DNA of 64,000 nucleotides, from contig NZ_BPFJ01000002.1 of NCBI RefSeq assembly GCF_019972115.1, forward strand, positions 682,001 through 746,000. Direction: 5' to 3'. The DNA comes from Sulfurovum sp. TSL6 (GTDB lineage: Bacteria; Campylobacterota; Campylobacteria; Campylobacterales; Sulfurovaceae). The position numbers were made by a program, and so were the translations under genes. Below, piece after piece: positions 53,242 to 55,861 of the stretch. The first letter of the stretch is position 1. Each line of letters begins with the position of its first letter. Below the pieces are notes generated by a model that was not told the origin of the DNA, ran no database searches, and saw nothing but the letters and a program-made list of their open reading frames with translations.

Positions 53242-53333
53242 CTAGCAACCCCTTTTCCTCCTATCATTTTAACGCTTATTGGTATTTCAACTTTATTTAG
53301 ATAAAATCACGTAATTATATATAAAGGATTGTA

Positions 53334-54626
53334 GTGAAAGTTACAGTAAACAAAGTAGACGACGCAAATATTATCGTAAGCGGTACTATAGAAAACAGTG
53401 CTGTTGAAGAGAACATTAACAAGATGGCTGTTCAAGCTGGTAAAGAGATGAAAGTAGATGGATTCAGAAAAGGTAAAGTACCTGCCCACGTAGTGAAAAA
53501 GCTGCATGGTGACAAGCTTGCACAGGATGCTGAAGGTGAAGTACTCAGAGAGCTTATTGATGCGGGTATGAAAGAAGCCGGTATCAATCCTGCAGATATG
53601 CTCGGTCAGCCTACCTTTAAAAAGTATGAAAAAACTGATTCAGGTATTGATGTGGAAGTAGAGATCTCTACTAGACCGGTATTCGAAGCGGAAGGTCATA
53701 TGGATGTACTTCCTGCCTTTGAAAGACCAACAGCATCAGAAAAAGATATCCAAGAGAAACTTGATGAGATCGCTTCACAGCAAGCACCTTATGAAAAGAT
53801 CAAAAGAAAACGTATGGTAAGAGACGGTGACATGGTAGTGATCGACTTTGAAGGTTTTGTTGACGGTGTAGCATTTGACGGTGGTAAAGCTGAAAAATTC
53901 AGCCTTAAGATCGGTTCTGGACAATTCATCCCAGGATTTGAAGAACAGATCATCGGTATGAAGTATGATGAAGAGAAAACAGTGACAGTAACTTTCCCGG
54001 AAGAGTATCAGTCAGCTGACCTTGCAGGTAAAGAAGCAGAATTCAAAGTAAAACTTCATGAAATCCAAGAGCAGGTACCAGCAGAGCTTAACGATGAATT
54101 GGCACAAAAACTTCTTCAAGGTGAAGAGAATGCAACACTTGAAATGTTGACTGACAGAGTTAAAACTCAGATCGAATCAACAGAGATTTCAAAACTTTAT
54201 AACGAAGACCTCAAACCAAAATTGGTTGAAGCATTGGTGGCTAAATTTGATTTTGCATTGCCAAACAATATTGTTGAACAAGAGATCGATGCAAAGATCA
54301 ATGCAAAAGCACAGCAAATGAGTGAAGAGGAACTTAACTCTTTCAAAGACAATCCTGAAAAAGTTGAAGCACTCCGTGAAGAAGTAAGAGAAGATGCAGT
54401 AGCCTCTGTAAAAGCGACATTTATCGTAGATGCCTTGGCTAAAAAAGAAGATGTATCTGTAGATGATCAAGAAGTATCACAAGCCATTTACTACGAAGCG
54501 ATGATGAGTGGTCAAGATCCACAAGAAGTGATCAAATACTACCAGGAGAACAATCTTCTCCCAGCTGTGAAGATGGGTATGATCGAAGATAAACTCTTTG
54601 GTAAGATGTTAGGTTTAGATAAATAA
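53334..54626 (+). CDS. tig: Trigger factor
   Basis: This 430-residue ribosome-associated chaperone has the N-terminal ribosome-binding motif GFRKGKVPAHVVKK (about residues 42-55). The FKBP-type prolyl isomerase domain (about 155-240, VVIDFEGFVDGVAFDGG and FIPGFEEQIIGM) and an all-helical C-terminal domain follow. The start is a GTG with AAAGGA-like AAAGG 5-6 nt upstream. It precedes clpP and def, so the three deal with nascent chains and proteolysis; two RNA hairpins lie between tig and clpP. Confidence 0.96.
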   Translation: MKVTVNKVDDANIIVSGTIENSAVEENINKMAVQAGKEMKVDGFRKGKVPAHVVKKLHGDKLAQDAEGEVLRELIDAGMKEAGINPADMLGQPTFKKYEKTDSGIDVEVEISTRPVFEAEGHMDVLPAFERPTASEKDIQEKLDEIASQQAPYEKIKRKRMVRDGDMVVIDFEGFVDGVAFDGGKAEKFSLKIGSGQFIPGFEEQIIGMKYDEEKTVTVTFPEEYQSADLAGKEAEFKVKLHEIQEQVPAELNDELAQKLLQGEENATLEMLTDRVKTQIESTEISKLYNEDLKPKLVEALVAKFDFALPNNIVEQEIDAKINAKAQQMSEEELNSFKDNPEKVEALREEVREDAVASVKATFIVDALAKKEDVSVDDQEVSQAIYYEAMMSGQDPQEVIKYYQENNLLPAVKMGMIEDKLFGKMLGLDK

Positions 54627-54634
54627 AACAAGCA

Positions 54635-54664
54635 AACAAATAGCAACGTAAGTTGTTATTTGTT
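54635..54664 (+). promoter_or_regulatory. GUAA-tetraloop hairpin after tig
   Basis: AACAAATAGCAAC (54635-54647) pairs with GTTGTTATTTGTT (54652-54664) over 13 continuous pairs, one of them G·U, closed by GTAA, a GNRA-type tetraloop. It starts 8 nt after the tig stop. It may be a terminator or a processing/stability element; the following T-rich stretch is short. Confidence 0.65.
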
Positions 54665-54678
54665 CTGTTAACCTATAG

Positions 54679-54721
54679 AGTGTATAGTTGAGTGGATAAA
54701 AAATCTATTTAACTATATACT
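54679..54721 (+). promoter_or_regulatory. 19-bp hairpin directly upstream of the clpP ribosome binding site
   Basis: Bases 54679-54697 pair with 54703-54721 without a gap around AAAAA. Fifteen pairs are Watson-Crick and four are G·U, all with G on the left arm. The Shine-Dalgarno AAAGG (54726-54730) begins 4 nt after the stem. The structure is fully paired only as plus-strand RNA. Confidence 0.7.
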
Positions 54722-54736
54722 ATTTAAAGGCAAAAA

Positions 54737-55324
54737 ATGAGTTATATTCCATACGTTGTAGAACAGACAGGTAGAGGTGAAAGATCTTACGATATCTATT
54801 CACGGTTACTTAAAGACCGTATTATTATGCTAAGTGGTGAAGTCAATGATCAAGTGGCTTCTACTGTAGTGGCACAACTTCTTTTTCTTGAAGCACAAGA
54901 TCCGGATAAAGATATTTATTTTTACATTAACTCTCCAGGGGGTGTGATCACGTCTGGACTTTCAATGTTCGATACGATGAACTACATCAAACCGGATATT
55001 GTAACAATCTGTATAGGTCAAGCAGCATCTATGGGTGCTTTCTTGCTCTCTTCGGGGACAAAGGGTAAACGTTATGCGCTGCCACATGCACGTATTATGA
55101 TCCACCAGCCTTCAGGTGGTGCGCAAGGACAGTCAACAGATATCCAGATACAAGCACAAGAGATACAAAGACTCAAAGACACATTGAATGAGATCTTGGC
55201 AGAGCAAACAGGTAAAACAACCAAACGTATTGAAAAAGATACAGAGAGAGATAACTTTATGTCAGCTAGAGAAGCATTGGAATACGGGCTTATAGACAAA
55301 GTACTCACAAAAAGCTTTATATAA
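54737..55324 (+). CDS. clpP: ATP-dependent Clp protease proteolytic subunit
   Basis: This 195-residue serine peptidase forms the tetradecameric chamber used with ClpX/ClpA. The catalytic triad is Ser98 (GQAASMGAF), His123 (MIHQPSGG) and Asp172 (ERDNF). [20 protein letters not shown] is the conserved N-terminus. It is followed 12 nt later by def. Its leader contains a long RNA hairpin ending 4 nt before the ribosome binding site, which may control its translation. Confidence 0.97.
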
Positions 55325-55336
55325 TAGAGACGGTAT

Positions 55337-55861
55337 ATGGTTAGAGAAATAGTAGTATATCCGGACAAAAGGCTCAAACTTATTTCAAAAGAGGTAGAGT
55401 CTTTTAATGGTACATTGCATGATCTTCTTGATGACATGTATGATACGATGCGTGCACGTAACGGTGTAGGTCTCGCAGCCATTCAAGTCGGTGTTGATAT
55501 AAGGGCACTGATCATCAACATTCCTTTAGAGGGTGCAGACGGAGAACATGATCAGCCTAAAGAAAATACACTAGAGATGATCAACCCTATGATACTTGAA
55601 AAAGATGGTTCAGAAAAATTTCAAGAAGGATGCCTCTCTGTTCCGGGTATCTATGAAGAAGTTGAACGTGCAAAACATGTAAAAGTAGAGTATCTTGACA
55701 GAGAGGGTAATAAGCATATGATAGAAGATGATGACTTTCTTGCTATTGCCATACAACATGAGATAGATCATTTGGATGGAAAAGTATTCATTGAAAAACT
55801 CTCTTATATGAAGAGAAAGAAATTCGAAAAAGAGTGGAAACGAAGATTAAAAGAGGCATAA
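55337..55861 (+). CDS. def: Peptide deformylase
   Basis: This 174-residue metalloenzyme removes the formyl group from new proteins. All three motifs are present: GVGLAAIQVG (about residues 44-53), EGCLSVPG (about 98-105) and the metal-binding HEIDHLDGKVF (about 140-150). Length is usual. Its position after tig and clpP groups nascent-chain processing functions. Two hairpins lie between its stop and the end of the convergent gdhA gene. Confidence 0.97.
   Translation: MVREIVVYPDKRLKLISKEVESFNGTLHDLLDDMYDTMRARNGVGLAAIQVGVDIRALIINIPLEGADGEHDQPKENTLEMINPMILEKDGSEKFQEGCLSVPGIYEEVERAKHVKVEYLDREGNKHMIEDDDFLAIAIQHEIDHLDGKVFIEKLSYMKRKKFEKEWKRRLKEA

Follow-up and report, generated by a model that had tools for sequence, protein, structure and literature searches.

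What does a pair of consecutive hairpins do between the trigger factor gene tig and the stress protease gene clpP, and does it act as RNA or as DNA? This is the question raised by the tig-clpP gap of Sulfurovum sp. TSL6 (NCBI RefSeq assembly GCF_019972115.1, contig NZ_BPFJ01000002.1, C2 in the coordinates given below), located in a window of 64,000 nucleotides (nt), positions 682,001 to 746,000 of the forward strand, which is the whole stretch of DNA analysed here. The second hairpin, a long AT-rich stem ending shortly before the clpP Shine-Dalgarno sequence, belongs to one two-hairpin module used at several unrelated operon junctions of an abundant deep-sea and sediment genus, at each of which the long hairpin closely precedes the start codon of the gene that follows. 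It is likely that hairpin 2 functions at the RNA level in one way or another. More specifically, the junction hairpins would act on read-through RNA like the RNase III sites of Escherichia coli, as candidate members of that class, a reading for which we find the balance even. The module would most likely let neighbouring genes of a shared transcript be expressed at different levels. If it is a true RNase III module, it would also provide a sequence-visible rule for operon-transcript cut sites in bacteria for which transcript data hardly exist.

One hairpin pair at four operon junctions

A model built on the clpP hairpin (R1) has a single match in this genome, which disposes of a repeat or mobile element, and gave weak matches upstream of perR and guaA in relatives. 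A scan of the genome itself (promoter and hairpin statistics cover 846 kb of its 2.25 Mb) found long stems enriched just before start codons, with 15 regions having a stem score of at least 13 where 0.7 were expected, fabF and perR included. Orthologous gaps, up to 30 for each gene, were fetched for guaA, fabF and perR. The three junctions are co-directional, with acpP upstream of fabF, a peroxiredoxin gene (prx) upstream of perR and nhaD upstream of guaA. In most species they share one anatomy: a GC-richer hairpin 1 (GC content about 0.45), immediately after it a long AT-rich hairpin 2 (about 0.2), then a Shine-Dalgarno sequence and the start codon. Hairpin 2 is present in 24 of 30 guaA, 29 of 30 fabF and 15 of 29 perR gaps, and from the end of its stem to the start codon the median distance is 13-22 nt at all four genes. 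Another model, R2, matches this genome convincingly at four places (clpP, fabF, perR and guaA); its weak extra matches at C2:8523 and C3:287370 look unrelated and were discarded.

The evidence that carries the structure is covariation between the arms, illustrated at guaA by GTTAAGT/ATTTAAC, AATAAGT/ATTTATT, AATCAGT/ATTGATT and AAAGAGT/ATTCTTT. In an ungapped mixed alignment (A2), 98 cells showed a change in both arms, whereas shuffles gave 35 +/- 4.5 and slid registers 6-22. Since A2 had been selected for pairing, events were also counted on FastTree gene trees, as changes on both sides from one standard pair to another, using an anchor symmetric between the strands and leaving out the core. 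This gave 31 compensatory events at guaA (0-3 in slid controls), 22 at fabF (1-3) and 13 at perR (0-2). As judged from these substitutions, a nucleic-acid structure is maintained at guaA, fabF and perR, and clpP alone adds almost nothing to that conclusion.

The tig-clpP junction and the choice between RNA and DNA

The two hairpins that the first-pass annotation had described in the tig-clpP gap were recovered to the base (Table 1), with the same sizes, loops, arms, four left-arm G·U pairs and distance of 4 nt from hairpin 2 to the AAAGG (54722-54725). Hairpin 1 pairs 54635-54647 with 54652-54664 and contains one G·U (54643/54656). Hairpin 2 pairs 54679-54697 with 54703-54721 with no interruption, its G·U pairs being 54682/54718, 54690/54710, 54692/54708 and 54694/54706, always with the G in the left arm. 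The segment 54627-54760 has a folding energy of -41.2 kcal/mol, against -19.3 +/- 3.1 kcal/mol for shuffles (z = -6.97; 0 of 200 shuffles as low), and the energy of stem 2 is -21.9 kcal/mol on the plus strand versus -6.8 kcal/mol on the minus strand. When 405 upstream regions of this genome were shuffled with dinucleotides preserved, 1215 shuffles in all, no stem of 14 pairs appeared, hence none of 19. Hairpin 1 of the window does not qualify as an intrinsic terminator (GC content about 0.27, no strong U-tract) and is absent from the terminator-scan listing; in some relatives (L015, L011) it does have a U-tract. The gene def is presumably in the same operon as clpP.

Table 1. Features of the tig-clpP-def region, in window coordinates.
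Feature	Position	Strand	Remarks
tig -10 element, TAAAAT	53302-53307	+	likely tig-clpP-def promoter; 11.7 bits with the -10 model
tig, trigger factor	53334-54626	+	TIGR00115, 354 bits
Hairpin 1	54635-54664	+	13 base pairs (bp), loop GUAA; terminator-like or 3'-end protecting; without strong U-tract
Hairpin 2	54679-54721	+	AT-rich stem of 19 bp with loop AAAAA; belongs to the operon-junction hairpin family, models R1 and R2
AGU, shared core	54691-54693	+	pairs with AUU 54707-54709 through a central G·U
clpP Shine-Dalgarno, AAAGG	54726-54730	+	not within stem 2; pairs partly with CCU 54672-54674 in read-through RNA
clpP	54737-55324	+	TIGR00493, 345 bits
def, peptide deformylase	55337-55861	+	TIGR00079; starts 12 nt past clpP

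The tig-clpP gap was extracted from 80 relatives, of which the closest named one is Sulfurovum sp. AR (96% tig identity), and both hairpins are kept in about 36 Sulfurovum species. At clpP, hairpin 1 keeps its shape with a variable sequence and is found in 39 of the 42 gaps that have hairpin 2; hairpin 2 is strongly conserved in sequence, with the consensus TTAATGTATATTTGAGTTGAT-loop-ATCTATTTAACTATATATTA. Covariation in the clpP stem showed no clear excess over shuffles, one pair excepted (A-U/G-U/G-C, columns 4/48). Taken alone, conserved arms with little covariation resembled a DNA dyad over a promoter. The first-pass annotation had stated that a stem neither conserved nor covarying in close relatives, together with a transcription start mapped downstream of 54721, would refute its RNA interpretation. 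The sequence proved to be conserved and covariation nearly nil at clpP alone, and this near-refutation was overturned only because the same element covaries at fabF, guaA and perR. In one relative (L028:4330-4442) an imperfect inverted insertion of about 50 nt, resembling a miniature inverted-repeat transposable element, splits the clpP right arm. Sulfurovaceae BB41 and BB14 (L055 and L056), from a more distant lineage, carry in the tig-clpP gap an unrelated hairpin of 17-18 pairs, TGTAGGCTTAGTATTA...TAATACTAAGCCTACA, which gives the impression that the element arose a second time.

A DNA dyad would serve as an operator, bound by a dimeric regulator and overlying an internal promoter of clpP, and the hairpin in the RNA would be a by-product. 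Such an operator is suggested by clpP arms conserved in sequence with fixed mismatches, by mismatch types that are nearly strand-symmetric, by the recurrence of the half-site TAT-N5-A[AG]T and by a weak TTAAC-N10-TATATT-like block of the clpP left arm that is still present in relatives lacking the palindrome (L037, L042, L045, L046, L059); a minor internal start in the clpP gap is conceivable. However, the gaps are poor in promoter sites. With a -10 model (extended TTTTGnTATAAT) learned from 201 divergent upstream regions of the genome, tig left out, the best site in the tig-clpP gap scores 4.3, the same as the median of shuffled sequence (4.3), whereas real upstream regions have a median of 7.9 and tig scores 11.7. 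Sites of promoter grade (at least 7.9, the median of real upstream regions) occur in 0 of 30 guaA, 0 of 30 fabF, 1 of 29 perR and 1 of 63 clpP gaps. Since the gaps lack such sites and the tig site is strong, the downstream genes are probably transcribed by read-through, with hairpin 2 in their RNA. Moreover, the spacing between the arms is not constant: at clpP the AGT-ATT distance varies from about 9 to 17 nt, and is larger where small hairpins are inserted (L033, L188), which is unlike a dimer site and favours RNA. RNA is also favoured by the four TAT-to-AGT bases, which differ among the loci of one genome and yet are complementary within each locus, a property not needed by a DNA-reading protein. 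Hence we regard a DNA operator as distinctly unlikely. Its narrower form, a repressor operator of clpP only with an internal promoter, was the explanation first favoured from clpP conservation and was demoted by the covarying copies and the promoter model. A shared heat-shock operator was also rejected, as the half-site scan gave 38 matches versus 29 in the reversed control and the other genes of the family are not classic heat-shock genes.

The position of the G in the G·U pairs had been taken as a sign of selection on the plus-strand RNA. The four clpP pairs do all have G on the left, but the asymmetry is not decisive, because the clpP G·U pairs are mostly inherited and the ratio of events on the trees is near that of slid controls. 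Over all loci, most of the excess of left G and right U is contributed by a single conserved core, in which AGU faces AUU (61 of the 96 core-bearing stems have G·U there), together with the inherited clpP pairs. Arguments from a single locus, such as this asymmetry or local conservation, can thus fail to decide where a family-level view is strong.

Proposed processing of read-through RNA

In the mechanism that we favour, tig, clpP and def would be transcribed from the tig promoter. Hairpin 1, a putative leaky terminator or protector, would reduce read-through, shield the 3' end of the tig message, or do both. The RNA that reads through would fold hairpin 2, which would most likely be cut by RNase III as the presumed enzyme; the cut would leave the abundant message of tig and that of clpP as separate RNAs and free the clpP ribosome-binding site, with a presumed effect on expression. 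The same two-hairpin module would serve acpP-fabF, prx-perR and nhaD-guaA in the genus. Cutting by RNase III and control of read-through had figured among the options of the first-pass annotation, whose description of two genuine hairpins, formed in the RNA where two genes of an operon meet, is supported.

Stems of some 20 bp that lie between two messages are typical substrates of RNase III. The stem of hairpin 2 is a long double-stranded RNA of 19 bp in the window and of similar length in relatives, and rnc is encoded in the genome (TIGR02191, 243 bits against a cut-off of 166). In folding, removal of the left arm frees the Shine-Dalgarno sequence: its GG has an unpaired fraction of about 10-20% in the read-through RNA at 37 °C, and its AAAG one of about 95% in an RNA starting at 54695. 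The same accessibilities, and the same covariation and position evidence, would also suit a role in RNA without any RNase III cut. Hairpin 2 would then insulate or tune the translation of read-through RNA by partial pairing of the Shine-Dalgarno sequence, or be a 5' cap protecting a message cut between the hairpins by another nuclease. However, the CCU:AGG pairing is not strictly kept, most relatives having CU:AG or none, and no specific nuclease site was identified; such a role is possible but rather improbable.

A number of observations weigh against the processing mechanism. At clpP it is the sequence of the arms that is conserved, a T-C mismatch being retained in 20 of 28 relatives, and the stem gave 2 compensatory events on the tree against 0-1 in slid controls. 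Changes from Watson-Crick to G·U versus Watson-Crick to A·C pairs at the four loci were 45:25, against 113:91 in slid controls, a difference that is not significant and that favours no strand clearly. Because the A[GA]T core and pairing itself served to anchor the loci, absolute pairing is inflated, the tree contrasts less so. Both hairpins are missing in several relatives (L003, L014, L035, L050, L051), whose gaps are of 13-26 nt. The likeness to the 23S ribosomal RNA (rRNA) precursor described below is a three-base-pair context with a chance of the order of 0.1. Finally, many double changes lead from one Watson-Crick pair to another with no intermediate seen, and templated quasi-palindrome correction could yield part of the covariation. 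Carried to its end, this last point would make hairpin 2 a product of mutation, template switching keeping AT-rich inverted repeats perfect without function, in agreement also with the loss of the element in several genomes. Nevertheless, the unchanged placement of the element ahead of the start codons of four unrelated genes in dozens of species, the shared core and a hairpin 1 that nearly always lies ahead make a neutral origin very improbable. Among the relatives with no hairpins, L003 is a contig titled Thaumarchaeota archaeon NORP47 with a Sulfurovum tig-clpP region (88% tig identity), from a mislabelled or contaminated bin.

The AT- and G·U-rich stem ahead of a stress protease gene had also suggested an RNA thermometer, in which heat would melt the stem and open clpP translation. 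Known RNA thermometers are ROSE and fourU, and the likeness to them lies in a hairpin just 5' of a stress gene. Here, however, the Shine-Dalgarno sequence is not enclosed in stem 2 and no melting occurs in the physiological range, the stem still having a paired fraction of 0.98 and 0.97 at 50 and 60 °C, respectively, far above growth temperature; the accessibility of the Shine-Dalgarno sequence climbs only gradually with temperature. With the same hairpin standing before non-stress genes as well, the thermometer was abandoned as hardly credible.

Known counterparts and distribution of the family

At the rplL-rpoB junction of E. coli, an RNase III stem comes after a partial terminator. The order of elements is the same as that proposed here: a highly expressed gene, a leaky terminator-like hairpin, a long processing stem and a less expressed gene. 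The two differ in that hairpin 1 is here without a strong U-tract, genes and sequence are unrelated, and cutting is presumed. The processing stems of the 16S and 23S rRNA precursors of the genus are also long near-perfect duplexes. The 23S stem covers 22-26 positions (about 24 bp), and the one wobble that all its intact forms share lies in the same AUU:AGU context; some 16S stems end in A[GA]U:AUU. These stems enclose rRNA instead of a short loop and have no TAT box, and the likeness is limited to three base pairs, a hint only because a context of that size can match by chance.

Other E. coli RNase III sites lie in hairpins, such as those of aceEF and pflBA, whose formation requires transcription to read through from the preceding gene, with further sites at ahpC-ahpF and metY-nusA-infB (PMC5371410). 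They resemble the present hairpins in separating neighbouring messages, and a peroxiredoxin gene is upstream in one case each. In E. coli cleavage is proven and some of the hairpins hold true promoters (PMC5371410), whereas here the sites are candidates with weak promoter signals, and a single type of hairpin, with a shared core, occurs at several genes. The module would function like known operon-junction processing hairpins, its novelty being the one recurring type with that core. A further step, which we put forward tentatively and consider unlikely, is that the lineage-specific family, defined by the core TAT-N5-A[GA]U : AUU-N5-AUA and covarying arms, would be recognised sequence-specifically by one factor, be it RNase III with a lineage preference or an unknown RNA-binding protein, jointly setting the output of clpP, fabF, guaA and perR.

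In the family of the window genome, R2 matches were found in 59 of 175 genomes, nearly all of the same genus; outside the genus, there are fabF and nusB copies in one genus and a guaA copy in a third. The nusB copy lies in the ribH-nusB gap of L324 (G168), directly 5' of nusB and after a GC-rich hairpin. Across the class, 12 of 397 genomes gave matches, two of them outside the family (G303 and G304, the latter in three rRNA spacers); these two were not accepted as true members, since their number fits chance over 397 genomes. The hairpin family thus appears to be essentially confined to one family, the Sulfurovaceae lineage of the window genome. No Rfam family reached its gathering score at the hairpins, where matches were far below threshold and chance-like, the window hits being transfer RNAs (tRNAs) only, and no paper describing this hairpin family was found in the collection of literature that was searched.

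The G304 matches lie in the tRNA-23S rRNA spacers of three rRNA operons in a genome of another family (L366, L369, L371), as a hairpin AGATATAAATC...GATTTATATCT with an R2 E-value of 0.006, within chance for 397 genomes, yet at a plausible processing site. Long AT-rich stems without an R2 match precede other start codons of the TSL6 genome (G000), namely those of a pckA-like open reading frame (C1:367814-367861, 20 pairs), a modE-like gene (C1:152602-152660) and a raiA/hpf-like gene (C2:338262-338296). They are possibly operators or further processing hairpins. Before a feoB-like gene of the same genome (C2:677718-677760, L173) there is a palindrome, GATAAGTGATAATAGTTATCATTTATATAGG, that resembles a Fur box.
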